A stretch of 64,000 bases of DNA from Spinellus fusiger (taxonomy: Eukaryota > Mucoromycota > Mucoromycetes > Mucorales > Phycomycetaceae). The translations under genes and the position numbers were made by a program. Where the stretch lies: assembly GCA_025094145.1 (NCBI GenBank), contig JALLLS010000011.1, forward strand, positions 186,001 through 250,000, written 5' to 3'. Below are positions 8,078 to 30,632 of the stretch, in pieces; the stretch's first letter is position 1; every line of letters starts with the position of its first letter. The notes below the pieces were generated by a model that had not been told where the DNA came from, did not search any database, and saw only the letters and a list, made by a program, of their open reading frames with translations.

Positions 8078-8289
8078 TACACACCAGGAGATCTTTAGGA
8101 TATAAAAGGAAATAGTCAAACTACAATTGTTTAAAAATGACATTGATTTGAAAAGGAGCAAAAAAAGTGAAATGTATTCATGTTAGATTTTAAATAAAGA
8201 TTATGTAGATTTACCTGTAAATATCTGAATCCCGAAGGAAACCACTTTCGATGTGGCGATATATAATATGAATACAAATATCTATTCTT

Positions 8290-8967
8290 ATGTGACTGTA
8301 TAGATATCCTTTGATGCATTTACATCTCTGTTCCAAACAATTCCATAACCTTGGCAAGCGTGGATACTGTTGAAATTCATGAATACCTCAGTGAGAATAT
8401 TTGTGTTATAAGTATGGCAAATCTTGAGAACAGAAATAAGAGTAACTGTTAGAACAGCTTTTCATATTAAGTGAGAGATCAATTATGTTTACCCTCGATG
8501 TTCGAAACTCATCAACATCAACCACATGAAGATTTCCATCTTTTTGTCTCTTTTTTCAATGATTGATATAAAATTATTGCCAAGCCAATACGATGACCTT
8601 TAAACTTGGCAGCATCTTTTACCTTTATTCCTGTGCCATAAGCAACAACTGGCAGCTTGGTAGGATTATACTCTAATCTTTTTAGGTGCCAAAACCCCTT
8701 TTCAATAATAAAATAATAGTAAAAATAGTTAGTTCAATATATATTAATGTACTCTCTATGTATGTAGTATTACCCTTGCACTGACACCTTTCTGTCTTTG
8801 TTCTTTGTTCTTTTCATCTCTCGTATTGCGGTTTCTTCTTTTTCATTCTCTCTATTTTGCTTTGTTTTTCTTCTTCTATACTTATTGTATTTTATACCAC
8901 CATTTATTAATATATTGACTATTTTTTCATATACAGCAGATAAACACCCTGAATAACTAGGATCCAT
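8290..8967 (-). pseudogene. Fanzor (TnpB-like RNA-guided nuclease) relic, copy 1
   Basis: Reading leftward, an exon encodes KLPVVAYGTGIKVKDA and then, after a frameshift, VDVDEFRTSR. An intron of about 75 bp with ggtaaa/caag borders follows, then ICHTYNTNIL and HACQGYGIVWNRDVNASKD. The order T-S-R-I-C, zinc-finger pair, five residues, R-D is the signature shared by TnpB and Fanzor proteins. Here the second and fourth zinc cysteines are tyrosines and the middle exon is frameshifted, so this copy cannot make a normal protein. An upstream frame starting MDPSYSGCLSAVYE (to 8967) may be the degraded RuvC-I region with its Asp-Pro, but I am not sure. It shares the same intron position and about nine-tenths of its bases with copy 2. 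Confidence 0.7.
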
Positions 8968-9573
8968 ATGACTGTCACCCTTCCTAATTTGCTTGGATAT
9001 TCTATAAAAACCATAGCTGTCGCTTGCGAATAGAAATAGCAGAATAGTATAAGTGTAGTTGTCTACATCTTTAATATATATATATATATAAAAAGACTTT
9101 AATCCAAACAGCTTTCTAGAGTATAAAAAAGATAGGCTTTAAGGACTTGAGTAGCTGACTGTTTCTTGTTTTCGACTTGTTTTCTTTCTATATTCCCACA
9201 TTGGTGCCATTATTATTACAGCTACCAGTCTGCCTTCTGTAACTCCATACCCTTCTCTTTTCTGTCAATTTCCATATGAGTGACCAGCCTTACGACGTCC
9301 TGTGTGTCTCTTGTCTCATAGCAACAGAATATTTTTGGGATATAAAGGGAAATACATGAACAATGAAATTATATTATTTCTTTGGTTGGCTAATGTATTT
9401 GAAAAGAACCTTCTCAATGTCTGTCTGTCTTAGCATTGCCTATTGACTGTGTAATTAAACACTATAAAGTTGGATAGAAGAAAGAAGTAAGCCTGACATT
9501 GCAACTCAATCACTGTATTTATTGTTTAACATGTGTTAACTATAAGCCCATAGCATTTGCAGTATGACACTGC

Positions 9574-9780
9574 TTAAGAAAGATGTATTACAAAACTTAT
9601 AGAGTTAACTTTAGTGATTATTATCCAGAAAATAGAACCAAAATCACTTGTGTTGAGAGCATTATAGACATTCATTGACTCAATATTCATAATAACCTCA
9701 ATTATCTCATTGTAACTGGTATTAACAGTGGTGCTTAATGAGAACTGTGTATTGTTTCTAATACTGGACTTTAGGCTCAA
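9574..9780 (-). other. Short ORF conserved in elements 1 and 3
   Basis: A 68-codon frame with YNEIIEVIMNIESMNVYNAL and NALNTSDFGSIFW. Element 3 has the matching sequence at 44394-44600 but with a stop in the N-terminal part and a different end. No family recognised. It may be a leftover exon of the autonomous parent or chance; the DNA identity of the whole block is high, so conservation of the frame is not evidence of coding by itself. Confidence 0.25.
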
Positions 9781-10450
9781 GGTAAATAGAGTGTGAATTG
9801 TTTGGCTTGTGAATTTTATGAGTGAAGGATATAGTGTATGCCTTACCAGTATAGATAGAAGTTGTAGACACTACCAAAGACTATTCTAGTGATAAAAAGG
9901 TAAGCAATATCTTTATCTGGGCCATGGCTTATTCTAATGTACAAGACACTCACTGTATTATTATTAGGCAAATAAAGACTCCTTTCAAGTCAGTCTCAAG
10001 TGGTCTTATATACTGTCTAGGGTCTCTAAGGTATACTCCTGAGCATAGTTATCTATCTCCCAAGGATAAAGAACAAGGATTTTAGGGTATAGATTCCATT
10101 GCTATGAGGGAATGTACTTGGGCAGTAGCTATAGTACATACTATAGTATTAGCTATAGTATTATAATAAACAATGCTATTCATCAACACTATATTCTATT
10201 GATAATACAATTTGATAGTGAGGTATACTACAAAAGAAAATAATTATTTGGATACTCTCAAACCTTTTGATTTTAAACACAGTTCCATAAAAGAACAAAA
10301 TGTGGGACCCTTGTAAAAGGAAATTTGTGTCCCTGCTTAAAATCCAGAAAAATCTCCTGATGTGTAGACTATTTCGTAGTCACAACTATGCACACGTGTC
10401 TATGACTGACTTGGCATGACATGACATGAGCAACCTCATCCCTTTTCTCC

Positions 10451-13099
10451 ATGTCCACACACACCACTGACCCACACTCTTTAAGGGCTACACAGTATGG
10501 TAAGCACTTTTAGTTTATCTTTTCCTTCTTCCTATGTCTATGCCTTGTATCTCATAGAACTATTAGCTGCTATTGTGTCCATGCTCAAACTCAATGCTAC
10601 TGACCCAAGTCACAACACCCACAGCAGCACTCTCACTGCCACCAGTGGAGCTATTAGTGCACAGGAGGATATTGTATGGAAGGCCCTAGTGTTTGATAAG
10701 TTTGGACAGGACATCATCTCTTCTATTATGAGAGTCAACGATTTACGTGACAATGGAGTCACTGTTCATATGTAAGCATAGAACAAACAACACAATCAAG
10801 GAGCAAGGGTTGCTTAACTGCAGACATAGGTCATTGAGCCAAGACAGATCTCCTCTTCCCGATGTTCCTGCTGTTTACTTTGTCGAACCCACTTCCGAGA
10901 ATATCAGACGCATCAACAATGTAATAAGATTCCATAGACGCCACAGTATTAATGTGACCCAACATAGGATATCAGTCGAAACCTCTATGAAGCCTACCAT
11001 GTTAACTTTTGTTCCACCATTCCACGTCCCTTGCTAGAGGAGTTTGCCAGTTTAACGATCAGTAGTGGTACATCGGACAAAGTGACACAGGTAGGAAACA
11101 TGACAAAAGACAAGCGTCGGCTTATTATAGAAAATAAAATAAAGGTGTATGATCAACACCTTAACTTTGTATGCACCAATGCTGATGTCTTTTCACTCCA
11201 CCAACCTGATACTTTTGTTCATTTGAATAATCCAAGTGCGCCTGAGAGTCTTATTGATGAGACACTGGAGTGTACTGTGAATGCTCTGTTTTCTGTTATA
11301 GTGACTATGGGTAAGAGGAAAAGAGGAAAAGAGGAAAAGAGAATGGCTTACATTCTATATTCTAGGGGTGATTCCTATCTTAAGGTGTCCTCGTGGAAAT
11401 GCAGCCGAAATGATTGCTACCAAGCTAGATAATAAGCTGCGTGATCATAGTATGAACTCTCGCACCCATCTATTCTCACAAGGAACCCACAATTCAAGTC
11501 TACAACGACCTGGTAGGTCCATCTCAACACTATAAAAAAAGACAAAATACCACCCACTCACCTCCTTCCAGTGCTTATTTTGTTGGATAGAAGTATGGAT
11601 CTTACACCCATGCTGAGTCATTCATGGACTTACCAAGCATTAATCCACGATGTACTGTCTATGAAGTTAAACCGTGTTACTATTGATGTAAGGACCTAGT
11701 GGGGGATATAAGTGACTTATACATACAAGGCCAATGAGCACAGTGATACACGAAAGAGCTATGACATTGAGAGTAAAGACTTCTTCTGGAATAAGAATGC
11801 CTCGAGTCCTTTCCCTCAAGTAGCAGGTAAACATCTACTTGCCATGACAGAATAAGAAGAAGGAAGAAAGAGAGTTGGTAAAACTCATCCTTGGCCATTA
11901 GAGGACATTGATATTGAGCTTACTAAATACAAGAAAGATGCGGCTGAGATCACTCGTATTAGTGGAGTGAGTTCTATTGAAGATGTGAATCAAGTGTAGG
12001 TACCACTGCTTGTACAAAACAAAAAAACAAAACAAAACAAAACATCTAATACGTTGCAGTGATCTTTCTTCCAATACAAAAGTGCTCAAGTCAGCTATTT
12101 CCGCTTTACCAGAACTAACAGCAAGAAAAACAACATTAGACATGCACATGAATGTTGCTACCAGTCTATTGAATTCAATCAAGGATCGTCAACTAGACCA
12201 CTTTTTCCAGATTGAAGAAAACATTACACGACAAGTAAGGGTGGATTCTTTCTCATAAGCAATACAATGACTTATCTATACAATAGAACAAAGCACTTCT
12301 CTTGGAGACTATTCGAGATGAAGAGAAGAAAAATCCTGAGGACAAAATGCGTCTGTTCTTAATATATTACTTATCAACAGCAGAAGAAGTGTCTAAAGAA
12401 GACATGGAGACCTATGAGAAGGCCTTGGAGGGTGCAGGTTGTGACCTTGCTCCTCTCACTTATATCAAAAAGTAAGTTTCTCTCGTAAGGCTGTGTCTAA
12501 GTCATTCTATAGAGTGCGTGCCTTGATGCGCATGACCTCTATGTTGGCTTCACCTTCAGGACAGACAGGATTCTCTCAGAATGACTTATTCAGAGGATTC
12601 AGCAGCATTGGCAATAGAGTAAGTAAGAAAGATGACCACACCCACTCACCCATCTATGCATTAGCTCACCGATAGACTCAAAGAAGGCGCATTAGGAGGT
12701 GGATTCGAGAATCTCCTGAGTGGTGTTAAGAACCTACTGCCCACTCACAAAGAACTAGTCATCTCAAAGATCGTGTCTGATATTATGACACCACCACAGA
12801 ATGAAGTATCAAAGGCAGAAGATTACCTCTACTTTGATCCTAAGCTTAATAAAAATGCCCGTTCAACACGCCAACACAAAGTGGCCTTCCAAGAAGCCAT
12901 TGTGTTTGTTGTAGGAGGAGGCAACTATGTGGAATACCAGAACCTCCAAGACATTGCTACAGTAAGTTATATAGGAGGGATTTATTACTAATAATAACAG
13001 CAAAGTAATACCAAAAAGAAAATCACTTATGGATCCACAGAGATTCTTTCGCCACACGAGTTCCTTGAGCAGCTTAAAACACTAGGATATGAAGCCTAG
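10451..13099 (+). CDS. SLY1: SLY1, Sec1/Munc18 family protein for ER-Golgi SNARE assembly
   Basis: Fourteen exons: 10451-10499, 10558-10771, 10824-10920, 10968-11090, 11145-11310, 11366-11512, 11572-11687, 11730-11826, 11902-11995, 12060-12234, 12287-12471, 12513-12618, 12665-12961, 13001-13099. Together they give 654 codons plus stop, close to the usual Sly1 length. The translation holds the family's landmarks: [25 protein letters not shown]-type [80 protein letters not shown] and [20 protein letters not shown]. Sly1 acts in the cytosol on early Golgi membranes, binds the syntaxin Sed5 and helps assemble SNARE complexes. The start is set by ATG at 10451, whose exon is in phase with exon 2 ([20 protein letters not shown]). 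Its promoter is squeezed between the transposon end at 10364 and the start codon. All introns are 44-75 nt. Confidence 0.95.
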
Positions 13100-13164
13100 A
13101 AATTTATAATAAACATTTAGGCCACCTTCCTTTCAACACACATTTACATTCTTATAAAGTGTAC

Positions 13165-14051
13165 TTATTCTACTTTGGATGTCCCAAAGCCAGAGAATCC
13201 CATCATTGCAGCCATACTATCTGCATCTGCAGATTCATGTACTTCCTCCTGTGGCTTCTTTTTGGCCTCTTTCTTCTGTCTTTTCTTCTCTTTTCTTCTC
13301 TTCTTCTCTTCTTCTTGCTCATTTTTCAGCTGTTCCACACGCGTATCGAGATCTATAGTAAGAAAGGATAAAGAATGAGACAGAAAGCGAGCTGTTGCTA
13401 TAGACAAAAAGCCAACCCACCATACTCTTCCTTAGGCTCTTCCTTCTTACGCTTTAGTTGAGCCAAACGTTCTTTTACAGAATCAACATTGGCTCTTTCA
13501 ACTTTCATGGAAAATCCAATGTTCTTTTGATCTTGCCTGTCCTTGTGAGTCTTTGAAGTTTATACATTCATCACTTAATAACCTACGTTTTCTGCCGTTG
13601 ATGTGATCAAGGTAGTTGGAGCTGTCCTTTACAACAATATCACATGCCTTGCAGTAAAATCCAGGCTGTCGTGCTGCTTCTCCAGAAGCACCACCTTGGA
13701 CTACCACCGTCTTTCCAAGGTTAGCGTCTAGTATAAGCCTTTCTTCTCTTGCTTTCAGGAGTTCTCTAGGTTCCTCCTCCTCCTCCTTTTTGTGAATAGG
13801 AGGAAGTCCTTGGCGTTTACGATCTTCGTTGATGGCACGCTCACGTTCTTTTGCTTCACGCAATTTAGCACGGGCTGCATACTCATCCTTGTCCCATTTT
13901 TTACGGAAGTCTGTATCTTGCTATGTTTTTTATTTATTTATATATATATTAAAATAGAAAACCTGTCTGTCAGTATCTAGTGTCTATTTGGCTAGTCTAA
14001 ACAGTAGAAGAAGTTGCTTACTGCTCTTCCTGCCCCGTAAGCACTTGACAT
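13165..14051 (-). CDS. SNU23: SNU23 / ZMAT2, U4/U6.U5 tri-snRNP zinc-finger protein
   Basis: Four exons: 14051-14022, 13920-13587, 13531-13421, 13352-13165, encoding 220 residues. FRKKWDKDEYAARAKLREAK near the N-terminus, the U1-type C2H2 finger FYCKACDIVVKDSSNYLDHI (Cys100, Cys103, His116, His122; the last His is made across a splice junction), QKNIGFSMKVERANVDSVKE and the C-terminal MAAMMGFSGFGTSK all match the Snu23/ZMAT2 family. The last third is a Lys/Glu-rich helix. The protein is a splicing factor of the B-complex spliceosome in the nucleus. It is convergent with SLY1, with only 65 bp between the two stop codons. The third intron has a weak donor, gtgggt. Confidence 0.94.
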
Positions 14052-17008
14052 TGCTTATAGTGTTGACATTAGAGAAAAGGCAAGGCAAAATCGCTTGAAA
14101 TACAGTCACATAATGCATTTGCCCTAAAATGGAAATATAAAAGAGTAGGAGATATCTTTTTGTATTATTGTTCTTTAGTGTTTGTAATGAGTAAAATAAG
14201 ATAAGCGAATTGAAATATCTAAAAATAACAAGTAATAGAAGACTCTATTCAATATCTACTATAAAAAGAAAAAGAAGAAGAAGAAAGGACAATCAAATAA
14301 GTTTTTATTAGCTTTGTCCTGATGAACAAAGAATGTCTTTTATTGCCTTAGTCAATAGATCTGTGATGAGATCAGTACAGGAATCAGTAACAGAGTGGGT
14401 AGGTTAATAGATCAGTGTGGTAGGTAGTTTATCAGATTCTTAATGCATAAGTGAGTGCATAAGTTGTTTTGTGTTATTATTCTCTACAATGGGTTTACAA
14501 TGGATTGATAATGGATTGACAATGGACTGACAATGATCCCAAACAGTCATTTTTTTAGTACAACTCTGCAATATAACTCTGCACTACATTTTTGCACTAA
14601 ATTTTCTAGTACAACTCTGCACTACATTTCTGCATTCTAGCTCTGCACTACATTTCTGCATTCTAGCTCTGCACTACATTTTTACACTGTAACTCTGCAC
14701 TGTAATTTCACATTCTGATTCTGTACTCTATCTCCACACTCCACCTTCTACTGTACCTGTTCTACGCCTCTGCTCTATTCTCCTACTGCATCTCCACGCT
14801 CATTCCAGAGACGTATTCTACAGTCCACTCTCATAGTCCATTCCCATAGTCCACTCTCATAGTCCACTCCTATAATCCATTCCCATAGTCCATTCCATCT
14901 ATAAAACTAGTCTTGCCCTATTGATCTCTCTTTTCAAGTTCAGTCCTAATCTGCTATTCAAGTACAAGAGATGAGGAATAGAAAAGCTCGGTCTTCTCGG
15001 GATAGTTCCTTACACTGAGAATCTGCGATCTTAATAACGATGAATCAACATTTGTAGACACAGACGCCATGCATTCATGTTCCTTTTTGACATTACACGC
15101 CTTTAAAGTGCTGGGGTTCCACCTCTAAGAAAACAGCCTGATCATGTCTACCCCATGTCCTCTAGTCATTGTAGAGTCTCTACCATATTCCTATAGTATA
15201 GTCTTACTGATTCTTACTGCTGCTCTTCAGTGGGACAAACTTTACTTTGCCAAGTAAAGAGATGACTCGGGCGTGTCCGAAACATGTTTTGGAACTCCTC
15301 GTTGCTATGGATTCCTTGTTCTGCCCACTTCCACCTTTCCTCCTCTTTTTTTTTTCTTTCTTCTTTCCCCATGACTTACTGTATTGATTTGGTATAACAA
15401 TGGAAAAAAAAGGTAAACAATAAACCTAAGCACTGATATTACAAGGCGGCAAAGAGGCTGTAGGAGATGATCGAGGAGGGCAGTAGTGATCTGTGTGACA
15501 AATAGAAAGGTTGTGTACTTTTGTTGGCTTCTCGGGCCGGTCTAAGAAGCAATACAAAAGATGCGTGGGATCAAAAGTGGCTTATGCTACACTCTATTCT
15601 GGGGTTATCTGTTTCTATAGGTTTGTTTTAGGCAACTATGTTAATATGTGAGTGGAGATGTTAAATGTTAGCATGTGTCTATGGCTAATTACGATGAATA
15701 TTTCTGACACAAGCTGCAAGTTGAATAGAGCGCCTTGACTGCTACCCTAATATACTGTGAATAAATTAACCCCACTGTTATTATCTAAAAATACACATTC
15801 AGACATATTATCCTAAATAAATAGATTGATAAATAGATGGATAAATAGGTAGTATCAACTAGGTAATAGGTAATAATAAATAGAGATAAATAGATAAATA
15901 TATTGATATATAGATAAATAAATAGATAAATAAATAGATAAATAAATAGATAAATAGATAAATAACTAAATAAATAACTAACTAACTAACTAACTAAATA
16001 AATACTGTATGGTTTAAAGAAGGGTCTGATAGCAAAAGAGGGATACTTTTCTATGGGCACGTGCAGTAGGCCACGTTATTGGAATCAAGTCCACGCAACA
16101 TGGTTAGTACTGGTCTAGGGATGATAAGAGACTGCATAAGTTCATTGGTTTATACGATAAAGTAGGTGTTTCTGTTCATGGACTTGTTTGTGGATTTGCC
16201 GATAGATGTGCTGATAGACTTGTTCATGGACTTGTTCATCTGTCCAACCCATTTTGCTTCTCTGCTGCTATCCTACTGACTTAGGGAGAGACATGAATGG
16301 GCGAATGGGATCAATATCACATATTTCCGAAGCAAATATAAGTGGGACAAGACTGACTGCCTTGCTTTGATTAAGAAACACATGATCCGTATATTTTTAT
16401 ATTTTAGAGTAGCCATAGTATTATGGAGTGCTTTTCTTTAACCTACAGATACTCCACAAAAAGACTCCTACCTGGCCCCACTGCAGTGTATAAGCACGTT
16501 TCTATCTCTTTTGCTGACTGACAGAGCTCTCTATTTCTATTCACCCTTTTGATTTCTGATATTCACTTGCACTTTATCCCTGCCTTATTCCCACTACTCC
16601 TCTGCTAATTTACCCTAGAGAAAAGTTGATTATTTTCATGTCCACACCCACACCCACACCCACACCTAATGCCTTTCTTTCTTTATCAACTACTACTTTG
16701 AGTGGGTCCACGGATAAATACTTTGGCAAAAAAGACAGACCTTCTCGTTGGCCCAGTTGCTTTTCATTTATCACAAAGGCAGTGGCATCAAAGCGTAAAA
16801 ATAAAAGAACTCTCCACACAAAGACAGGCCAATGCCATGCTTCACTGGCCCATACATTGGCTGTTCCCGCCTATTCACCCTCCCACCCACTGTCCCAAAA
16901 TTCTTGTATTGGAAAATGTAAGCCCAGAGAAGAGTGCAAAATAGAGTCTCCTTTCTCCTTTCTCCCCCCCTCATCTGATACTGATTGAATTGATTAGCCT
17001 CTTCATTC
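14052..17008. other. Long spacer with several tandem repeats
   Basis: No coding region is supported. It contains degenerate CTGCACTACATTT units (about 14565-14720), CATAGTCCACTCT units (14815-14905), and GATAAATAAATA arrays (15825-16010). Moderately GC-richer, non-repetitive stretches at 14930-15330 and 15430-15610 are not recognisable as RNA genes. The final part (16620-16660) has a CCACAC run and may be the leader of the next gene. Confidence 0.5.
15825..16010. repeat. GATAAATA / AACTAACT microsatellite
   Basis: Tandem GATAAATA and GATAAATAAATA units that end in ACTAACTAACTAACT. Plain simple-sequence DNA. Confidence 0.85.
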
Positions 17009-18463
17009 ATGCCGCCACAACGCTTCTCATTGCCTGTCACAGCCTTTTCTGCTCTCTCCCCTCCTCCACGCCGCCAATTCAAGCGCCGTCCCTGTCCCCC
17101 GGGGTCTGTTGTGAGCAAAAAATCATTACAACACGGCCTCCGACTCTCACTGCATGCAGAGCAGGACATTCCATCAGCACTCAATCTAATGCAGTGTCCT
17201 TCTTGCAGTGATACTGAGGCAGAGCCCTGCAACAGAAATTCAAGTCGGTTTTCAGAGTGCCATCATGCACTGGAGAAGCCGTCCTTTGATCTCGTCCTAG
17301 GACACCTACGAACTGCACCTGAATCATCAAGACCTGAATCATCCGACAACGGAGAAAGTGACTTTTGTCTTGATTCTCCCAAGGATTCTCCCAAAGTCTC
17401 TCTCAAGGATTTCCCCAAGGATTTTTCCAAAGATGCATTCAAGCGTTTCTCAAGAGAGTTCTCGAAGGATTTTTCGAGGGATTCCTTTAGGAGTTTCTCA
17501 AAAGATACATTTAGACGATTCTCAAAAGATTTCTCAAGGGACTCTTTTAAAGAATCAAATAGAGATAGTGTAAGAGATAGTGTAAGAGATAGTATCAAAG
17601 AATCAAAGGAGGAAACCACCACAGAACCCACCACAGAATCCGATGATGAGCCAAAGGATGAGCCAAAGGATGAGCCAAAGGATGAGCCAAAGGATGAGCC
17701 AAAGGAAAACAGTATAGACGACACTAACGACACAGTCCAACCCATCACCCAAAATAAAGAAACTTCACGCAAATCCCATCGCCGTCGACGCACTCCGCTA
17801 ATGATCCCCGATGATGATCGTATGACTCTCAAAACAGTAGCATCAGGACAGCCTCTGGAGAAGGCAGGAAAACACCACCCTAAAAAGAGAGACCACGACG
17901 AACTTGCTTGGCGCCAACGACTGCTGCAACACTCACTACACTATTGCTTTGATCAGATGTACACAAAGAGCCTTGCTCATTCTCATGCAAGTCCCAAGGC
18001 ACGCCGCTCAAGTGTAACCCATGCATGGGAGACACCACTGCAACACTCTACGGGGTCCTTTTCCATGGACAGTCACCGACAAGGAGAGAGTGACATTGTT
18101 AGAGATAAGGCACAGTACGATGCAGTTGTAGCACAGACACAGCACCGCAGACCCAGAGTCCATCACACCAAACATCAGAAAAGACCCACTTCATTAGTGA
18201 TGTCTTCCCTAGGAAAACATACGTCCTTCCTGCCTGCTTCTCCAGGGACACACACATCCTCCAGCAAGGTGTATGTCTCTGCACCACCCACACCCCTGGT
18301 CCCATCCCAGGCCATGGGTGCCTATTCTCTTCCCAAGAACATGACAGCACCTTCTCTTATTTTTGATCCTTCCTTGTCCAGTTCAACTGCATCTACAGTG
18401 GAGAATGAGGATCCTGAGCAATACACTCATCTGCCCTTGTGCTCACCCCAAGATTCTTTTTAA
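17009..18463 (+). CDS. Large disordered protein with Ser-Lys-Asp-Phe and DEPK repeats
   Basis: Single-exon ORF of 484 residues, no recognised domain. Residues about 120-190 are built of repeated (F)SKDF/SRDSF/RRFSKD units, followed by three RDSVRDS-type units and then five DEPK tetrapeptides (about residues 212-231). Downstream there is a basic motif, KSHRRRRTPLMIPDDDRM, and a Ser/Thr/Pro-rich tail rich in His. The unusually long open frame, higher GC content and lack of stops over 1.4 kb favour a real gene over chance. Charge-patterned S-K-D-F repeats could be phosphorylation or scaffold sites, but that is a guess. The minus-strand frame over the repeat (17263-17832) is its shadow. Start chosen as the first ATG of the frame (ttcattcATG); an upstream overlapping frame exists. 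Confidence 0.6.
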   Translation: MPPQRFSLPVTAFSALSPPPRRQFKRRPCPPGSVVSKKSLQHGLRLSLHAEQDIPSALNLMQCPSCSDTEAEPCNRNSSRFSECHHALEKPSFDLVLGHLRTAPESSRPESSDNGESDFCLDSPKDSPKVSLKDFPKDFSKDAFKRFSREFSKDFSRDSFRSFSKDTFRRFSKDFSRDSFKESNRDSVRDSVRDSIKESKEETTTEPTTESDDEPKDEPKDEPKDEPKDEPKENSIDDTNDTVQPITQNKETSRKSHRRRRTPLMIPDDDRMTLKTVASGQPLEKAGKHHPKKRDHDELAWRQRLLQHSLHYCFDQMYTKSLAHSHASPKARRSSVTHAWETPLQHSTGSFSMDSHRQGESDIVRDKAQYDAVVAQTQHRRPRVHHTKHQKRPTSLVMSSLGKHTSFLPASPGTHTSSSKVYVSAPPTPLVPSQAMGAYSLPKNMTAPSLIFDPSLSSSTASTVENEDPEQYTHLPLCSPQDSF

Positions 18464-18848
18464 GAAATACTCCACCTGCTATTCTTTTTTTTTGTTTTTT
18501 TTTGTTTTTGTTTTATCTGTTTTTTAACTGTTTTTTAACTGTTTTTTCATCTGTTTTTCTTATTTATTTATTTATTTATTTTTCTTATTATTTTTTGTTA
18601 AAGCCTGGTGCTTTGTTTTCTTGTAGTAAATAGGGTAGTAGCAGCATAAGAAAACAGACAGACAGAAAGAAAGAAAAAGTACACCCATAGATACATTTGA
18701 TGCTGTTGAGGGGTGTTTATTGTTATTGAATAGTAAAAGAAAAGAATCCCCTGTGAATACCACGAATGTCTATGATGAGAGAAGTCTGCTGTAGTGACCA
18801 ACAATGACCCTTCTAATGACCCTTCTAATGACCCTTCTAATGACCCTT
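18464..18848. other. Convergent 3' region between the disordered-protein gene and SCO1
   Basis: It holds T-rich sequence (18485-18600), probably 3' UTR and polyadenylation region, and four copies of a 12-bp unit AATGACCCTTCT at 18803-18854 that run up to the SCO1 stop codon. Confidence 0.5.
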
Positions 18849-19893: not shown

Positions 19894-20357
19894 TGTTGCA
19901 GTGCCTCAACAGAAGAAGAGACAAGTGAGGAGAACGAGTAGAATAGCAGATGGTAAAAAGATGAAGAAAATAAATAAATAAATAAATAAAATAAATAAAT
20001 AAAATAAAATAAAATTAAAATAAATAAATAAATAAGATAAATAAATAAATAAATAGTAAACAAAAGACCGGAGTCTACAACTTCACATGAATCCTCAGAA
20101 CAGTCATGCCAATGCTCTTTTGTGCAAGGATGTCTTACTTGTAGAGTGGCTGTGTCCATAGGTAGGGGGGAAGTTGACTCCTTCTCTATGCGTATTGACA
20201 CTACTCTAAAACGGCATTGTCCTCTCTCTCTCTCTTGTCAACACAGTCACACACACCCACACACACAGATCTAGAGAGGGAAATTCAAGCAACTCTCCTC
20301 CAACCCAAGTGACGGCTCTGCTGCCTTCAGTCTCCGTCCATTGCTTACTTCTTCTCC
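19894..20357. promoter_or_regulatory. Divergent intergenic region SCO1 / BAG
   Basis: The 464 bp between two outward-facing start codons must hold both promoters. It contains an A-rich AAATAAATA tract (about 19965-20060), a CT/AC tract (20220-20270), and no recognised specific element. Confidence 0.45.
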
Positions 20358-20611
20358 ATGACCCACCTTCCTATACAGTGGGAGAAGCGACACTTCCAAC
20401 TCTCTTATCCTGATCTTGAGACACTGGAGAGCGTGACAGTGGGTGATGTGAAGAACAAGTGCTCTACTGTGACTGGTGTTCCTGTTGAAGCTATGACCTT
20501 GTTTGTTCATGGAGGTAACACACTGTCTCTTATTACTATCATGATCAATCTACTCTTCAGTGAGGGTGGGAGTAGCTGTTGCTGACTGCCTATGACTGTT
20601 CAATGTACTCT

Positions 20612-20642
<31 letters not shown>

Positions 20643-21185
20643 GTGTGTGTGGGGAAGTTTAGCCATAATGAACAATGACCAGCTGTCATTGCAAAAGTAC
20701 AGTTACCGTCCAGGCTCAAAGATCATTCTTAATACTGTTTTCAAGGTAATGTCCCTGCTCTTTCTCTGGACACACTATTCATTGAAGGTGATCAGTCCAA
20801 ACACAGTCCAACCAAAGACAAAGCTCACCCGTACACAAGTGATGCATTGACACTCAAGATACTGGGAGTGACACAAACACGGCTTGAGGCTACTCTAACG
20901 GTGGCTGTGGATGCATTTGAAAAGGCAGTGAGGGAGTACCTTGAGTCCAAGACACCCAAAGACACAGAGGCCCCAGCAGAGACAAACCAACATCAGCTCA
21001 AGGCATTGCAGCGCAAGGCACTGGAGTGGGGAGAGCAGTTGATGCAGGTTCTGTTTGATCTGGACGAGATCTCTATGCGGCCTGGATTTGATGTGGCCCG
21101 TCAGAAGCGTAAACAAGCTGTCACAACAACACAGGCCCTGATAGATCGAGTGGATGCCATGCAGTGGTTGTTAGCACACAGATGA
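20358..21185 (+). CDS. BAG-family Hsp70 co-chaperone with ubiquitin-like domain
   Basis: Three exons (20358-20514, 20663-20745, 20796-21185), 209 residues. The N-terminal half is a ubiquitin-like fold: ETLESVTVGDVKNKCSTVTG, then GAIMNNDQLSLQKYSYRPGS across the first intron, a pattern typical of UBL domains in BAG1 proteins. The C-terminal half is a BAG domain: ALEWGEQLMQVLFDLDEISM and FDVARQKRKQAVTTTQALID, with the acidic/basic helix that contacts the Hsp70 ATPase lobe. BAG proteins are nucleotide-exchange factors for Hsp70; the UBL is thought to link to the proteasome. The second intron's acceptor is gatcag, because the nearer gaag would give a stop within 20 codons. Confidence 0.88.
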
Positions 21186-21365
21186 ACCTCACATCAATGG
21201 ATAGACCGTTGGATAGATCAATGACACAGTGTACTATTCTTGTCCTTTATTTATTTATTATTATTATTACTGGTGAGGGGAATCTACTGAAGAAAGAAAG
21301 AAGAAAGAAGAAGAAAAAAAGAGGCATGTACATTGACTCTCTACTATGGACACATAAAGCAGGCC

Positions 21366-22112
21366 TTATGGAAATAGAATAGAATCATGGCCTGAACCCG
21401 TATAATCAAAGTCAATGTCAGCAGTCTCCAGTAGGGGTGAAGGTGGAGGAGAAAAGGTAGAAGGTTGAAGGAATTCCCGTGCAAAGAGACCAAGGACGTC
21501 TTCTTCTTCGAGCACCCGGGTAGAAAGACCAGGAGTAGAAAGATCAGAATAATGAGAAGTAGTAGGAAGAGGGCCAAATAGATCAGGTGTAAGATGGGGA
21601 GAGTAGGCGTCGGATTTGTGTGTAGGCGTAGGAAGAGGAAGACGTCTGCGAGAAGAGTAGTAGGGGTGGTGGCGTACTCTGCCACGTCGTTGTGAATAAG
21701 TCATTGTTGTGTGTCCAGTGGCAGGTGGAGAGGTGTCAAAGGGGGTTCTGTGGGTGGGTGTTTGGGTGAAATCAGAAGTACAAGGGGTGTGGGCAGTTTT
21801 GCTGGCGTGGTATGCTTTGATAGAGGGATTTCGAATCAGATCTATATAGAAGAGGGCGGGGCTTGTGTCTTTTGGATTGGATTTGTTGGAGGGGTGTGCA
21901 GATCTTCCTTCAGTGGACTGTGAATAAGACGAGAAGCGCGGTGAGGCTTGAGGGTGAAACTCATGTTTTCGTGGGATAAGGTGACTGGAATGAAGTGGGG
22001 AAGAAATGGTTGGCTTTTTAACTAAAGCGAGAGAGAGAAAAGAGGAGAAGAAGAGGAAGAGGAAGAAGAAGGAATCCAAGTAAACAAGTGACAGTTGGGT
22101 ATAACTTGTCAC
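21366..22112 (-). CDS. Hypothetical Ser/Thr/Pro-rich protein
   Basis: A 248-codon open frame without a recognised domain. The C-terminal 60 residues look the most protein-like (LEEEDVLGLFAREFLQPSTF, ETADIDFDYTGSGHDSILFP). The first 35 residues (FFFLFLFFSSF) are encoded by a pyrimidine tract ending in tttag and may be an intron, so the true start may differ. It could encode a small disordered regulator or nothing. The facing gene BAG ends 180 bp away. Confidence 0.4.
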   Translation of the reverse strand: MTSYTQLSLVYLDSFFFLFLFFSSFLSLALVKKPTISSPLHSSHLIPRKHEFHPQASPRFSSYSQSTEGRSAHPSNKSNPKDTSPALFYIDLIRNPSIKAYHASKTAHTPCTSDFTQTPTHRTPFDTSPPATGHTTMTYSQRRGRVRHHPYYSSRRRLPLPTPTHKSDAYSPHLTPDLFGPLPTTSHYSDLSTPGLSTRVLEEEDVLGLFAREFLQPSTFSPPPSPLLETADIDFDYTGSGHDSILFP

Positions 22113-24840
22113 CTTTTATACTCTAGGCACTTGGACACTAAAGACAGAGAATGTGTGGTGGAGTGTTCTTTGTTCAATAGTTGCTTTTGCTTAGAAAGAC
22201 AAAATCAACAGAGAAGGGGGAAGGGGGCAGAAGAGAAGAAAAGAGTTGAAGAACAAGTCACTTATTTATCTATTGATAGAAGAGGAACTCCAAGTAGAAA
22301 TACAAAGACACCCTATAGGTTATACCATATAAGGGATGAAGAAAGAAGAAGTAGAAGAGGAAGAGAAGAGGAAGAAGAAGAGGAAGAAGAAGAGAAAGAA
22401 GAAGAGAAAGAGCAAATAAGAAAAGAATAAAAAAAAGGGGAGTGGGCTTGGGAAGTGGGAAAATAAACACTACAGTGTTACTTACTTTATATGATTGGCT
22501 ACTCATAGTGATACAGGCAGGTGAGAGGGTGTTCCTTGTCTAACAGTAGTAGGATTCTACGGCGATTCAAATAATACAAACAGCGTAATTCATTTAAAAG
22601 ACAGACAAGGAACATCAGCAGTGTGGCTTCAGAAGCAAAAAGAGCAAGAACAAGAACAAAAGAGCAAGAAAAACAAAAAAAAAAAGAAATACAGAAACAG
22701 AGACAGAGACAGTAAATGAAAAAGAACAAATGAGGGAGAAAAAAGAGTCACTATTTCCTAGCCAACCAGAAACACTCTATGTGTAGAGAACAGTTGTACT
22801 GTTGTTAGCTAAAAGATAGAAAAAGGAAAAAAATAAAAAGGGAACAGGTAGAACACACGTACATTTATAGTGTTTTTATCTCTTGTGCTAAGCTCATTCG
22901 TATATGATTGGCTGATCTTTCAGGATGCTACCAACAAGCAGTAGATGAAGAAGAATAAAAAGGCAATTTCCATATGAGCACACCCACCAAGAGGCCCATG
23001 CAGAGATACTTTAGGGAACTATGAAATAGCCTGTAAATAACTGCCAACGTAATAGTGACAAGAATAGAAAGAGTATAAAAATTGATATAGGCAGGTTGTA
23101 CTGATTCTCTCTAGAATAGAAAAGTTGGATCGTCCCGATAACCCGACACCTGACAGTCGTGGTGCTTCTTTCCTTGAAGATGGGAAGAGATAGACTGGGT
23201 GGTTAAGGTTGAATTGATTTTATCCTGAGTGATATACCTCTTGTCTTTGTTGATAGAGTGTCACAAAGCAATGTCAACAGAGACAAGAAGTGTAGAGATA
23301 GAAGAACAGTGAGGCATCCATTGGAAAGTCAAAAGTCACTCTTCACTCATCTCTTCAATCCATAGAATATCCCAATAGCATCTATTATGATCCATCTACC
23401 AACTCATTCTTTAATCAATAGTATAGACTTGAGTTGGAGCATAGCAGCCTACTTCTTTATTGTCATGACTACTAAATGTCAATGGCTTGTGAAGCGGTGT
23501 TATAACCTAGTGACACATGTAGCCATGGCAACAAGTGCCAAGTCCGTTACCAATAGTTGGAGTAATGTTACCCCACTTGTGTCATCGTGTTGTGCGAAAA
23601 AACCCTAACCCTAACTGCGCCATATAACATTCTTTACGCTTTACTACTGCCAAGTATACATTGTTGTCTGATGAAATAAACAATTGGGCTATGATGACAT
23701 TGAAAATCCAGTTTAATCATATTCTACTTTTTTTTTTTTCATTTGATGCATATCTTGTATTTGTTAGACATTCTACAAATAGTCAATAAAGAGAATCATC
23801 CCGATCCTATGGAATTGTCCCTTTGCTCAATTATCCATAGCAGACATGGATATATTTTACATTAGAAACTCATACAGCTTAGTCTACTGATATGGATTGA
23901 TTTTACATCAGACAGTTGAATGGAGTAAGTTCTGTCTCAATTCATTTGTAGTTTAACAATGTCAGCAGTAGAATAGACAATAGATCGAATAATGTAAAAA
24001 GATACATGATCAGATTCGTTTGATGAAGATGAGACATGTTCTCTCTCTCTCTCTTGTCAATAGAAAGAAGAGTGATCTAATATCCATGGTCGGAAGAAGA
24101 GAGACACAATAAATTAGTCAGTGGATCCTTATTGATAAGAAATAGACAAGTCATATGTTATGTGTGACAATAGGCAGACTACGGGAAAACAAATCATAAG
24201 TCCTTATTAGTGGAAAAGATAAGCAACGGATGAACAATGTCACTGAGTTGCAATGGTCTCTCCACATCACAGTCAATACAAGAAATGAAATAATAAAAAG
24301 GAAGAGTGCATGACGTATTTATCAATCCATCTTATCATAACTCAATGTTGAGATTATCCCGAGTAGTAAACACTGCAGAATAATCTACTATTGTTTATCA
24401 TCTTATAAATGACCTTATTGTTGTAGAGGCATTGGATTGATATGGAAAGTGCTAATAATAATAATAATTGTAAGCATATACACTTTCATGTCTTATTCTG
24501 TCAAGAGGAGCCAACAACGATAAGAAAAGAAAAAAAAACACTCCTCTTGAAACCTTTTGCAAAACTATTTTTATCATTGTAGACAAGCCTCCTCTCTTTC
24601 TGCTGAGCTCCACATCCATTGAATTCAACAATACACTATAGAGAAATCCATATCTTTGGTCAGGCATTGAAAATGAATACAAGAATAAGGTTCAAATGAG
24701 TCTGAATACGTGTACTCTTATATCCCTGTAGAGATGTAAGGGTGTTCAATTGATAAAAGAAAAAGAAAGAAAGAAAGATAGATCATGCATCAATAGTAAT
24801 TACAAGAATTCATACATTCATACATTGATCTATGAGTTTA
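22113..24840. other. Gene-free spacer
   Basis: No supported gene. It has purine-rich GAAGAG runs (22340-22420), two similar ATATGATTGGCT boxes with a CCAAT core (around 22490 and 22901), and two and a half CCCTAA units at 23602-23616. Short open frames here have no protein-like character. Confidence 0.5.
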
Positions 24841-26536
24841 TTATACCAAATATCTTATAATGAAACTAAATGTGCCACCCATAGCAAGGCCAAAGACAAG
24901 GAAGAAACTCATCAAATTTCCTACCAAAGACTTTTCTGCATTGCTCTTAATAAACGATTGCTGTGGTGCTGCCATCATGGTCAGACTGCCGATCCAACCA
25001 TTAGTAACAGCAAAGATCCAGAGGATCAAAAAGTAGAGAGTATCACTGTTCACCCAGACAGAGATGCCTCTTTCTTCAGGAACAATGACATTGCACACCA
25101 AGAAGAGGGGAATAAACAGTGTACGAAGCAAAGACATAAAGGCCAGTTTCTTGGTATCAAATATCTGGAAGCACTTAATAATAGGGATGGTTCTTCCTAC
25201 CCAATCACCAACATTGAAGAGTAAGAAGTGGAAGGCTACGAACAGATCATCATCAAAGAAACGGTAACGATCAGAAGGTGCGGCGACTAAGTTGTCTTCA
25301 GGTCGATGCACTGACTTGATGAGAGCAGTGATGGAGGGGAAAAGAGCGAGAGTAATAACAAATACATAGCCAACAGTGAAAATCAAGCCAGCAGATTTAC
25401 GTGTGACTCTAACAAGAGAAATGGAATCCTTTGAATAAACATAATCGCTTTGACTGATGCTTTCTTCGTCTGAGAGTTGTTCTGTGGAGGATTGAATGAC
25501 CACAGAAGACTTTTGGTAAATGTAAAAAGGGTGTTTTGCAATGACAAATCTGCCTACTAAGGAGGCCAATGTGATGACAAGTGCTGTTGTGAAATATAAA
25601 AAGGCAGATCGTGTCACTGCCTCTTCATCGGGTGTGGTGTCTGTAGAGCCCACCAAAGCACTAAGAATAGAGAATATGGCTACTGCAACACCAGAAACAC
25701 CTAACAATACAGATGAGCGGGATGTTGTTGATGAGTATTCTTACCTTGCCCACTGAAGAAGAATGAATATTTAATATTTAATAAAGGAGATACATGAGTC
25801 CTATGCACTGGGAATCACTGATCAACATTACCTCATAACAGCCTGCATGTATTTTGGTGGAAGACAGCTGGCCTCAGCAAACACTGCCACTTGAGCAAAT
25901 GCAGTAGACACCCCTGTAATGACCAGTAGAAGAAGTGTAAACCAGAAATAGTCACTGCCACTACTGTCTGTTTCTATGGTGATGGCCATAATGCCAAATA
26001 CGGCAGCATTGACAGATAAGGGAGTAATGACATCGGTGTGATATGACGTGGACTACCATCACCACTGCAGTTTCAGTATCCTTGACAACCACATTCTATT
26101 GCACTTACTCTGCTTTGTTTCCATAAAAGATAGGTAAAAATGACAAGATCAGAAATAGTGAAGCTGGTGGAAAAGTAGTTTTGAAAGGTGCCCTCATAGC
26201 CTGACCCACGGAAACGCCTGAAAAAGAATTCCGATGCAGTAATAAAAACTAATCAAAATAAAACATAGGCTAAAGGACGTATAACTTACTATTCCACGGC
26301 AAAAGCATAGCAATACCATAGAGGAAAAAGACCTTTGTACAAAAATAAGCCCACCATTCTTTTTTCTTCTCTCTTACCCAATAGACTACGCTGGCCTTGT
26401 CTTCAGGTTCCTCAGTGGTAATGAGGGATGACCCCGGCTCGTCTGATAGAAGCCTCTGTTGCTCTTGAGCAGTTGGATTTGCCCTGAAGAAATCATTGAA
26501 TTTAGACTGCACATAATGGGTGGTGGATTGAAGCAT
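24841..26536 (-). CDS. Equilibrative nucleoside transporter (ENT / Fun26 family)
   Basis: Five exons: 26536-26290, 26248-26109, 26052-25832, 25752-25745, 25700-24841; 491 residues, usual for the family. ENT signatures are clear: MLLPWNIFITASEFFFRRF at the end of TM1 and into the first loop, GSGYEGTFQNYFS, AQVAVFAEASCLPPKYMQAV and SGQGVSGVAVAIFSILSALV in TM4-5, GDWVGRTIPIIKCF, and a C-terminal GNLMSFFLVFGLAMGGTFSF helix. About eleven hydrophobic helices with a large cytosolic loop are seen. Family members move nucleosides across the plasma or vacuolar membrane; localisation cannot be told. Exon 4 is only 8 nt (TGGGCAAG) and supplies the conserved Gly-Gln; without it neither frame nor motif is kept. 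Confidence 0.92.
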
Positions 26537-27254
26537 GAAATAATAAAGGGGAGAAGTAAGAATTGATTAAGAAATACAGGACAATAAGAGCATAAGAGAA
26601 AGAGAGTAACGTATAAGTTTATCTTTTTATGACATCTCTTTATCCAATTAAGAGGAGTCATGTGGATTGAATCCAAGATAGTCTTTTATCTTACTCTGAT
26701 CTGGTTTCTCTGTTTAATAAAAACAACAGTGGGTAAATATGATATAAAAGTAGAAAATATAGGGTTTATCATTAACACTAGGCTTCTAACACTAATGGTA
26801 GATAGATTTTAAATAGTAGGCACCAAGTAAGAAATATAGACTGTTAGCAATGGTAGGACCAAAACAGTAAATTATACCACCACAGAATAGCAATGGAGAC
26901 CAGCAACGACCAAAAGAATCCCGTGATAGTATCCTCATTGGCTGCTGGGTGTTTAATCTATGTTTTTAAAGAATGAAATCTCTTTCCCATATTGTCCTTT
27001 GCTCCCAGTAGTACTCATGTTTAGTATTTAGTGTACCAGAGTAAATCTTATTCTTTGTAAGATAAACTATCCACTGTGTATTCCAAAATAAGAAAAATGA
27101 GGGTGATGGTGATGGTGATGATAATAACAATAATAATAATAACAATAATAATAATAACAATAACAATAACAATAACAATAACAATAACAATAACAATAAT
27201 AACAATAACAATAACAATAATAACAATAATAACAATAACAATAATAACAATAAC

Positions 27255-27291
<37 letters not shown>

Positions 27292-27533
27292 TGTACATGT
27301 AAACTATAAGCCAAACAGAAATAGGACATTCTCCTTGGGATATGTCCGTAATCATGTCAATCAACAGAAATGGTTCACTTTGTTTGTAATAAAATAAATA
27401 AATAAAAAGCTGAGTTTTATAAGGAGAGAGTTTGTTCCTTCAAATAGAGGGTCATAAGATCATAGGTAGGTGTAGTATTATGATAATTATGATAATTAGA
27501 ACAGCAATCCTCGATAATAATATAACCTGCCTG

Positions 27534-27565
<32 letters not shown>

Positions 27566-28079
27566 ATCAACCCAATGGTATAGCTCACCATGAGACATAA
27601 AAATAAAAATAAAAAAATAAAAGTTAAATGTCTAGATGGCATCAAAGGAATAGTGTGCTGATAATTGCTGATAAATAGAAATAGGGGAAACATTCGTTGT
27701 ATACAAGGCACTTTTTTTTAAAAAAATAAATAAAGAATCCCACAAAAACCAGGGTATTCTCCTGGTCAAGTTGTTAAGTCTTGCTTGCCAATGACCATCA
27801 GTCCTCCACTGTAGAGATATATCCTTCATGATACTCTTTATACTACTGGGGGTGAATGTATAAATGAATTCCTATATTGGACTATTCCAATGAGTTCAAT
27901 ACATTTGAATTTATAATCCTATTTCTAATACAGTCGAGGGGATATATCTGCTATAATATTCTAACTTTTAAAATATATCACCAGCACCCCCCCTTCTTGT
28001 AACGAAAACTCTCTGTTCTCTTTCAAGGGAAAGTTCATGAACCAAGAATGAAACTTACAAACCATGAATTTTGATTGAT
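26537..28079. other. Spacer with AACAAT microsatellite
   Basis: No gene supported. Contains a GGTGAT run (27098-27120), an AACAATAACAAT/AATAAT array (27120-27290), a TTATTA run (27541-27567) and A-rich tracts. Confidence 0.6.
27120..27290. repeat. AACAAT/AATAAT trinucleotide-type microsatellite
   Basis: About 170 bp of AAC and AAT units. It creates poly-Leu, poly-Ile and Thr-Ile open frames on both strands, which are not genes. Confidence 0.92.
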
Positions 28080-28490
28080 TTGTCTGGACTAACAGTATCA
28101 TCAACAAAGACTCATAGGCCAATTCTACTCACCCAAAAACAGCCCCAAAGCATCACACCACCGCCACCAAAATTTGTTGTTGGAGCACTATGATTAGGGT
28201 CATACTATTCTCTAACTTTTCTGATGATACCTCTTTACTGATCGTTTGTTCAATTGAAATGTTCCTTAGCCCAACAAAGCTGCTTCTCCTTGTGTTTTAC
28301 AGTGAGGTCTGACTTGTGATCTACAGAAAAATATTGGAACCTTAACTGATTGCAGTAGCTGATAAGAGTGTTTCTACATACATCCACCTCAAACTTCAAC
28401 ATTTTCACTCTCAGTTGATCATATGAGGCAAATGAATTCGTTATAATTATTTCTAGGTGTCTAAGATCTCCCTCATTCACTTTTTTATGT
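28080..28490 (-). pseudogene. Tc1-like transposase fragment
   Basis: Minus-strand reading gives NEGDLRHLEIIITNSFASYD, which aligns with NERDLRRLEAILKGNPFVSY of the relic at 32957-34024 (the Tc3-type helix-turn-helix region). After a stop and a gap come GGGGVMLWGCFWVSRIG and FVDDTVSPDKSIKI, matching the region after the first catalytic Asp of Tc1 transposases. No intact frame; both ends of the element are lost. Confidence 0.7.
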
Positions 28491-29302
28491 TTTCATGACT
28501 CTCCAAATGTAATAACAATCTATGTTCTTTGATATTTATAATACTATTTTGAACTATGAGATATTTCATCTCAACTATGCTTGCAACGATAGTCAACTTT
28601 AATTCAGCCTTCAACAGGTAATATATGCCCCATCATCTTCTATCTTTTGCCTTGTCCTATTCTCCACAGATGTGAGTTTATGAACATTTATATGACATAG
28701 TGTGTTGGTTTAACACTATTTAGAATGAAAAAGAGTTTCATACAAAAAAATGTGTTTTATTTATTTATTAAATAATAGCAGGCACCTGGCCCTTCTTAAT
28801 GGGCCATAATTGATAGCTCTCATGAATCAATCTAATGCTTATCAGAGTTCTGTTCTTTACAGTTGATATAAACAGTGTGTTAAGGTGTTGGGATATTATT
28901 TTATATTAAACATAATAATATGGACTGAAAACTAAAGTATTTTTATACAAACAATATTAGCAGTAGATCTATCTTCTCTTAGGATCTGTGAGCATTGGAA
29001 ATCCTCTTGGATTTAAATACCACTCGTGACCTTATTTATTTACCAATTGTTAACTATCAACTCGTCTTTTTAATGTATTAGAAGATTATTACTATACTAT
29101 TGTCTGTGATAAACTCATTAAACAACTCCAAACAGAGAATCTCTATTTGAATATCAATTTTTTTTTTGTATGAAGTCACTGACTTCAATTTTATTTACAC
29201 GCACAACCTATCAGAGGGAGGGAGGATATTTGAATATCAAATGTCATGCCTTAATTCTTTTTAATAAGATAGTCACTCCTATTTCAAATAGATGGATAAG
29301 CC
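28491..29302. other. Spacer before Fanzor-type element 2
   Basis: A+T-rich sequence without a supported gene or clear repeat. Confidence 0.4.
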
Positions 29303-29493
29303 TACACACCAGGAGATCTTTAGGATATAAAAGGAAATAGTCAAACTACAATTGTTTAAAAATGACATCGATTTGAAAAGGAGCAAAAAAAGTGAAATAT
29401 ATTCATGTTAGATTTTAAATAAAGATTATGTAGATTTACCTGTAGATATCTGAATCCCGAAGGAAACCACTTTCGATGTGGCGATATATAATA

Positions 29494-29553
29494 TGAATGC
29501 ATCAAAGAATATCTATTCTTATGTGACTGTATAGATACCCTTTGATGCATTCA
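29494..29553. other. 14-bp perfect inverted repeat at the 3' end of the Fanzor relic
   Basis: TGAATGCATCAAAG (29494-29507) pairs with 29540-29553; after a 2-nt mismatch, 29510-29516 pairs with 29531-29537, leaving a 14-nt loop. It begins inside the RDVNASK codons and runs past the expected stop. In element 1 the distal arm is kept but the other arm has lost several bases. Confidence 0.85.
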
Positions 29554-30058
29554 CATCTCTGTTCTAAACAATTCCGCAACTTTGGCAAGCGCGGATATTG
29601 TTGAAATTCACTAATACCTCAGTGAGGATATTTGTGTTGCAAGTATGGCAGATCTTGAGAACAAAAAAAGAAAACAGAGTAACTGTTAAAAGAGCATTTT
29701 ATATTGAGTGAGAGGTCAATCATGCTTACCCTCGATGTTCGAAACTCATCAACATCAACCATAAGAAGATCTCCACTCTTTTGTCTCTTTTTCAATGATT
29801 GATATAAAAATTTTGTCAAACCAACACGATGGCCTTTGAACTTGACAGCATCCTTTCCTTTTATTCCTGTGCCATAGGCAATGACTGGCAGTTTGGTAGG
29901 ATCATACTCCAATCTTTTTAGGTGCCAATACCCCTTTTTAATAATAAAAATAATTAGTTCAAGATGTATTAATGCACTCTATGTGTGTGTCGTATCACCC
30001 TTGCACTGGCTTCTTCTTCTTGCCTTTGTCTTTGTAACGGATTCACTGGGTTTATCAT
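29515..30058 (-). pseudogene. Fanzor (TnpB-like RNA-guided nuclease) relic, copy 2
   Basis: From right to left: a short exon starting MINPVNPLQRQRQEEEASAR, an intron of about 65 bp whose donor has decayed to gtgata, and an exon with KLPVIAYGTGIKGKDAVKFK and GDLLMVDVDEFRTSR. A 76-bp intron (29729-29654) follows, then ICHTCNTNIL and ACQSCGIV-stop-NRDVNASK. This fits the TnpB/Fanzor pattern exactly: T-S-x-x-C, two CxxC pairs, five residues, R-D. All four zinc cysteines are present, but the residue before Asn-Arg-Asp is TAG where copy 1 has TGG, and the N-terminal two thirds (wedge and RuvC-I regions) are missing. The Glu in VDEF just before TSR could be the relocated catalytic Glu reported for Fanzors. 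The last Asp (RuvC-III) is present. Non-functional. Confidence 0.75.
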
Positions 30059-30632
30059 AGTAAAAGAATATACAATAGAAACTGAATAACATGTCAAACA
30101 TAACAAACATACACAAACACTCACCAGATCACAACTGTTGGTTTATATGCCAGACAAAAGCAAACAAAATAAAGAGAGTAGAGGTTATAAAGAACAACAG
30201 ACAGTGTAGTTAGCAGGTTTTTATATCCGAACAGAAAAGAACAAAACGAATTTTCACAAGTCAATTGCTTAATCAGAGCTACCAAAGTAATGCAGATTAC
30301 AACAACATCTAAAAAGAAAAGAATTGCTTAAAGAACAGTTGCCTAGTTACCCGTTGTAATCAGATCGTGTGTTGTGTTCCTGTTCATGTACCCTCTTTGA
30401 TTTCCTTAGACTAGCCTTTGTGCCAATTCTCTATTTCTTAGTCCCTGCTAGAGACCAAATATCTATACATTTATCTCTCTAATGGCCTTGTTGATAACTA
30501 CAGTGCCTTTTATTACAGATACTTGCAAACCTTTGGTTTTTAAACACAGTCCCATAAAAAATGAGGTTTTATTGTGACATAAAAGGAAGGAGATATCCCC
30601 GCCTAAAAGCCAGAAAAATCTCCTAGTGTGTA

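Follow-up and report, generated by a model that had tools for sequence, protein, structure and literature searches.

The window analysed here, a 64,000-nucleotide stretch of Spinellus fusiger DNA (assembly GCA_025094145.1, contig JALLLS010000011.1, positions 186,001 to 250,000 of the forward strand), contains at two sites what are, near certainly, the decayed relics of genes for Fanzor, the eukaryotic TnpB-like RNA-guided nuclease. Spinellus fusiger is a mould of the order Mucorales, family Phycomycetaceae. Each relic lies in a transposon with short terminal inverted repeats (TIRs) and flanking TA, and these transposons, referred to as elements A and B, are members of a new and very large family of an already known Fanzor-bearing kind. 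Their features, in window coordinates, are as follows.

8080-10364, minus strand: element A of the Fanzor family, 2,285 bp, with its right end (RE) at 8080 and its left end (LE) at 10364
8078-8079 and 10365-10366: TA flanks of element A
8780-8985, minus strand: further upstream Fanzor exon piece of element A (genome-wide search: 40 matches scored among 49 candidates)
8493-8697, minus strand: decayed exon GFWHL...DEFRTSR of element A, with an internal frame change; upstream border approximate
8423-8492, minus strand: intron of element A, 70 nt, between the R and I codons
8288-8422, minus strand: last exon relic of element A, ICHTYN...CQGYGIVWNRDVNASKDIYTVT-stop; PF07282 at 35.9 bits as a spliced piece
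29305-30630, minus strand: element B of the Fanzor family, 1,326 bp, RE at 29305, LE at 30630
29303-29304 and 30631-30632: TA flanks of element B
29730-29933, minus strand: exon GYWHL...DEFRTSR of element B; upstream border approximate
29654-29729, minus strand: intron of element B, 76 nt, at a position identical to that of the element A intron
29519-29653, minus strand: last exon relic of element B, ICHTCN...CQSCGIV, then an inherited TAG, then NRDVNASKGIYTVT-stop; PF07282 at 42.6 bits spliced (X at the stop)
29525-29587, minus strand: last 21 zinc-finger codons of element B (the core); in a comparison of 37 copies every codon position is conserved
29305-29364, minus strand: RE-proximal 60 nt of element B, observed to be conserved; putative part of an omegaRNA scaffold
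29491-29556, minus strand: 26-nt inverted repeat of element B; one arm spans 29491-29516, and the other, 29531-29556, falls within the RDVNASK codons

One end of each element reads CACACCAGGAGAT, and the inverted other end differs from it by one mismatch (CACATCAGGAGAT; CACACTAGGAGAT). Read on the minus strand, both yield DEFRTSR, the intron, IC.., the position of a second cysteine pair, five residues and RD. Each is damaged in its own way: in element A one cysteine of each pair is replaced by tyrosine, while in element B the tryptophan codon preceding NRD has turned into TAG. A first-pass annotation, made from the letters of the window, had described TA-bounded inverted-repeat elements, the order T-S-R-I-C, second cysteine pair, five residues and RD, interrupted in both copies by an intron at one shared position, and distinct damage to each copy (two lost zinc cysteines versus TGG to TAG). 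All of this is seen on rereading, together with a shift of frame in the exon that precedes the finger of element A. Within the window by itself, the TIR pattern, with two mismatches allowed, does not clearly exceed chance (6 matches, a number reached in 7 of 100 shuffles). Genome-wide counts of longer ends settle the question: at up to 3 mismatches these come to 855 left and 722 right matches, and to 0 for reversed-pattern controls.

That the relics derive from Fanzor genes, as had been proposed, is supported by profile comparison. Both spliced pieces exceed the cut-off (26.3 bits) of PF07282, the Cas12f1-like TNB family. Genome-wide, all 150 of the stretches scored for this family, among 457 candidates and hence a lower bound, reach E<=0.001, and 147 are above the cut-off, two only with neighbours in frame; the unspliced last exon at locus L085 falls slightly below it, at 25.7 bits. 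In the relatives the motif reads TSR-I-C..C and C..C-GIVWN-RD, which is the [TS][TS]xx, C4 finger and RD pattern of Fanzor1. Longer genomic copies, whose existence the first-pass annotation had anticipated, do occur, and they carry further upstream exons and a Fanzor1-type RuvC-I aspartate segment (GVDLG or GVDPD) that is missing from both window relics. This segment lies about 200 residues before TS (estimated by reading; the Fanzor1 range is 125-275). Since a Pfam search with the upstream pieces of these longer copies returned no significant family, calling them the Fanzor N-terminus rests on their position.

The possibility to be weighed against this is that the zinc finger belongs to another family and only resembles that of TnpB. 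In its favour, single-sequence searches of solved structures yield weak TnpB/Cas12 matches (best E 0.0023) or none, and the NCBIfam TnpB models match under their own cut-offs (best E 1.4e-6). The PF07282 scores speak against it, however, and so does a profile of the RuvC half, built from 14 sequences (two of them one and the same S. fusiger protein), which aligns to SpuFz1 among the solved structures (8gkh, E 1.2e-4); four more entries were matched, at E values of 0.4 or worse. Confusion with another family is consequently very improbable indeed. Judged by these profile matches, the RuvC half is nearer to Fanzor1 than to prokaryotic TnpB, with SpuFz1 its only credible solved relative. Named homologues in Cokeromyces, Basidiobolus and Rhizopus are among 17 matches, and a 206-residue open piece at L083 is 100% identical, along 93% of the piece, to a Spinellus fusiger protein. 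The predicted fold of the RuvC segment (12 sequences) has a mean predicted local distance difference test score (pLDDT) of 48.8.

Gene-bearing copies are few among hundreds of mostly gene-less ones. Against the 855 and 722 end matches, a RuvC-I exon query finds 25 stretches (25 of 25 candidates scored), corresponding to about 19 places; 17 span the aspartate. In this retention of ends with loss of the gene the copies resemble ghost elements, which also keep a guide-RNA region, here putative. At L085:633-4101 (3,469 bp) a single element combines RuvC-I and zinc finger with upstream exons and has its left and right ends. At L080 the Fanzor gene is without a confirmed left end, because the reading of L082 and L080 as a single 5.7 kb element is ruled out by a complete 1,052-bp ghost at L082:232-1283. 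(Upstream of the Fanzor exons at L080:718-1358 and L084:1314-1649 there are CxxC...H...C motifs resembling zinc knuckles, noted by eye and with no profile match.) Twenty-five end pairs, less one duplicate, give 24 complete elements, and all 24 have TA flanks and inverted ends. The 12 complete elements that were compared, of 1.0 to 3.1 kb, are varied internal deletions of a longer element. Miniature elements of 258-280 bp at L092, L097 and L101 have a common junction and retain at most about 183 bp of the left end and about 102 bp of the right.

The kind of element is not new. Mariner elements that have TA flanks and carry Fanzor1 have been on record since 2013 (PMC3627910; mentioned also in PMC10711439), and Bao and Jurka (2013, PMC3627910) list Fanzor1 for the Mucorales Rhizopus, Phycomyces and Mucor. 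Like their Tc/mariner elements, which share the Fanzor1 C-terminal motif, TIRs and TA duplications and some of which are Fanzor elements free of transposase, the Spinellus copies combine motif and ends; unlike their family MCi-2, with 11 copies, the Spinellus family is far larger and mostly gene-less. Spinellus does not appear in the accessible part of their species table. Ghost elements have been known since 2023 (Saito et al. 2023, PMC10432273): in Spu-1, as here, gene-bearing loci (42, of which 19 are full-length) are fewer than ghost loci that have ends but no gene (134), although the Spinellus end counts, obtained at different search thresholds, are several times higher. A literature search that left most subscription journals outside its range found no paper on Fanzor in Mucoromycota or Spinellus, nor on the Spinellus fusiger genome.

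The first-pass annotation had concluded from the different damage in each copy that intact relatives probably existed recently. For element B this is not borne out, since its stop codon is not private to it. The TAG and a 45-nt deletion occur together in eight of 38 aligned right-end regions, those of element B and of L010-L016, the latter seven having entered the sample as close matches to element B. (Of 47 right-end sequences, 41 were distinct; L026:9272-9607, L084 and L101 were dropped.) Element A has the 45-nt deletion with its TGG still intact, and L021 has the TAG without the deletion. Stop and deletion being common to eight copies, they are inherited, and the subfamily multiplied after the stop had arisen; its multiplication must thus have needed help in trans.

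The bases that flank the elements are asymmetric. At exact ends genome-wide, counted without thinning duplicated contig stretches, C precedes the left TA in 208 of 285 cases and the mirror-image G follows the right TA in 138 of 336 (Fisher p 1.1e-15); a by-eye count of the 24 complete elements gives 20 and 7 (p 3.6e-4). In a separate set, thinned by collapsing similar flanks (63 to 58 left, 49 to 47 right, with 53 of 165 candidate ends unclassified), C stands at 42/58 left and 18/47 right ends (p 7e-4), and TCTA at 25/58 and 10/47 (p 0.02). (A looser end pattern mixed the end classes and was replaced by the stricter one.) In the SpuFz1 elements of S. punctatus, a conserved CA ahead of the 5' inverted repeat makes up, with TA, the target-adjacent motif (TAM), CATA (PMC10432273). 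The oriented C of the Spinellus family lies where a TAM would lie, and with the SpuFz1 geometry this leads us to infer (T)CTA as the predicted TAM. Conserved bases before the 5' inverted repeat are thus a likeness to Spu-1, CATA there corresponding to the predicted (T)CTA here; the TAM of PpFz1, the Fanzor1 of another mucoralean, Parasitella parasitica, is given as ATN (PMC11423790). It should be noted that PMC11423790 prints the TAMs of GtFz1 and SpuFz1 swapped relative to PMC10432273.

Part of the flank evidence is less favourable to a TAM. In the thinned set, T one base further out is found at 31/58 left and 22/47 right ends (p 0.56), so that the oriented evidence is limited to the C of (T)CTA. 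The mirror of CTA is also enriched at right ends, 41% against the window background of 0.19 for C before TA; a symmetric target preference therefore explains part of the signal, with a further excess on the left alone. Finally, CTA stands at the left side of a third family element of the window, one absent from the first-pass annotation, even though that element is missing the conserved right-end segment.

44096-45184, minus strand: third family element, 1,089 bp, LE at 45184, with the variant TIR CACACCCAAAGAT and TA on both sides; without the zinc-finger exon and without the conserved RE-proximal segment beyond the TIR

These last two observations fit an account in which the family amplified in the manner of miniature inverted-repeat transposable elements (MITEs): a Tc1/mariner transposase would have mobilised passive deletion derivatives in which the Fanzor gene was a dead passenger, and the oriented CTA bias would be a target preference of the transposase, which treats the two non-identical ends differently. 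The varied internal deletions of the 12 complete elements, the miniatures (three examined) with their common junction and the inherited stop all suit it as well. What it accommodates less readily is the strength of the orientation, on the very side where a Fanzor TAM is placed, and the conservation of the core, some 220-330 nt from the right end, even at third codon positions, for which a passive passenger has no need. We regard MITE-like amplification as unlikely, though far from negligible.

The conservation of the core emerges from the nucleotide diversity of 37 copies (5 of 42 having been removed as short or identical). The upstream exon has diversities of 0.188/0.168/0.226 at codon positions 1/2/3, comparable figures for two introns being 0.20 and 0.16. 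The first part of the last exon (ICHTC...) shows 0.070/0.130/0.173, the core 0.063/0.065/0.071 and the coding tail 0.21/0.19/0.15; diversity in the 3' region is 0.11 and in the last 60 nt 0.065-0.069. With the nine copies of the window-copy subfamily removed, the values for the remaining 28 are 0.036/0.033/0.059 for the core and 0.213/0.195/0.239 for the upstream exon. Core third positions differ from those of the upstream exon (p 1e-4) and from the introns (p 5.5e-4; permutation, 37 copies). The pattern indicates that the upstream exon is near unconstrained and that the core and the right end are constrained at the nucleotide level, pointing to a constraint on the core that acts on nucleic acid rather than on protein. 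The core might instead have been conserved with no guide RNA involved, through selection on its zinc finger as a protein or through gene conversion that recently affected the 3' part, and the gradient in the ICHTC... part is indeed protein-like. Yet third positions in the core vary about as little as the other two, and had the whole 3' part been converted, no intron-like tail would be expected between conserved blocks, so that this explanation is improbable.

A guide RNA that might account for the constraint can be sketched. In the RNAalifold structure 54 base pairs, 2 of them showing a two-sided change, join the core to the right-end region, and a 4-bp helix lies near the right end; a repeat search in element B finds complementarity of 29350-29368 with 29555-29573, matching the RNAalifold pairing. 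The last 266 nt of element B fold better than shuffles (z -3.27), mostly on account of the hairpin 29491-29556, which is present at full length in part of the copies only. In a slid control 98% of cells are paired, against 35-45%, but this counts for little, the structure having been derived from the same sequences. Searched with Rfam at gathering thresholds, the window gives no match. PpFz1 has a short scaffold with a 4-bp SL2, to be compared with the 4-bp helix here. The guide RNAs of SpuFz1 and PpFz1, of 90 and 75 nt respectively (PMC11423790), are shorter than the conserved region and leave the conservation of the core unexplained; unlike what is described for SpuFz1, the conserved segment in Spinellus extends into zinc-finger codons. 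The right-end RNA of SpuFz1 has been shown (PMC10432273); that of the Spinellus family is putative.

The two window elements are probably best explained as decayed members of a family of DNA transposons that bore Fanzor1, had short TIRs between TA flanks and would have operated by the following mechanism; such doubt as attaches to this statement belongs mainly to the mechanism. A Tc1/mariner-type transposase, acting in trans, would have moved the elements. The few full copies would have supplied Fanzor protein, and full and ghost copies alike would have produced guide RNAs from their right ends, with the RE-proximal 60 nt (29305-29364) as the 3' part of the omegaRNA scaffold and the right flank (in element B, the flank beyond 29305) as the guide. 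At an empty allele, (T)CTA on the left edge would then have been the motif that Fanzor recognised; the allele would have been cut, and repair templated by the occupied sister copy would have restored or spread the element. Ghosts would have needed their ends and the guide-RNA region alone, and might on that account outnumber gene-bearing copies. The features of the copies are consistent with an enzyme that once used guide RNAs made by its own family.

Several results weigh against this mechanism. No intact Fanzor gene was found: in the five of the approximately 19 RuvC-I places that were read (L036, L080, L083, L084 and L085) each gene, as its exons were read, has at least one apparent lesion, for example a deleted exon, loss of a cysteine pair or stop codons within the RuvC-I exon. 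Many copies were fetched through a zinc-finger match, which biases core positions 1 and 2, though hardly position 3. Covariation lends the predicted right-end fold no support, the observed values being met by 305 to 471 of 500 shuffles, and the last 106 nt of element B, taken alone, fold worse than shuffles (z +1.73). The miniatures, retaining only about 102 nt of right end, imply that the core segment is dispensable for mobility. Nor was a transposase with the family's ends found in a limited search, in which PF01359 was silent even on controls.

The Tc1/mariner-like carrier proposed in the first-pass annotation is thus upheld as far as its TA flanks and TIRs are concerned, no matching transposase having turned up in that limited search. 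Among the fetched loci, none offered an empty site spanned by joined flanks that would prove TA duplication.

A more ambitious reading, which we offer tentatively and consider rather doubtful, is that the several hundred ghosts, each with its own right flank, would together provide a Fanzor acting in trans with a repertoire of guides spread over the genome, that the sites at which copies persist would have been shaped less by the preference of a transposase than by selection, exerted where empty alleles are cut at (T)CTA, and that the guide RNA would reach the zinc-finger codons through long-range pairing with the right end. A family of hundreds of copies bears on why eukaryotic transposons retain RNA-guided nucleases: it allows a TAM to be read from genomic flanks and constraint on protein to be separated from constraint on RNA, and strains that differ by single insertions would put the model of Fanzor retention to the test.

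Other features in the window and elsewhere concern transposases and ends. A decayed Tc1-like element at 32850-34207 contains a relic of a DDE_3-type transposase between different TIRs (TACAGTCACACAACA). Along 1.36 kb it shares approximately 90% identity with a copy in L019, and it has more DNA relatives at L010, L022, L023, L028 and L034; this DDE_3 family, the one Tc1-like family whose ends were compared, was rejected as the source of transposase for the Fanzor elements because its TIR differs. At L035:1113-2234 an open frame of 374 residues has tandem helix-turn-helix domains of the Sleeping Beauty type (PF25787, five stretches); the 25 families shown for it include none with a DDE domain. 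Facing left ends, possibly marking elements with two left ends, are found at C10:27294-27961, C31:24149-26350, C61:20029-24775 and C111:210939-211617; adjacent to TA, their outer bases read C/T, C/A, C/G and C/C, respectively.

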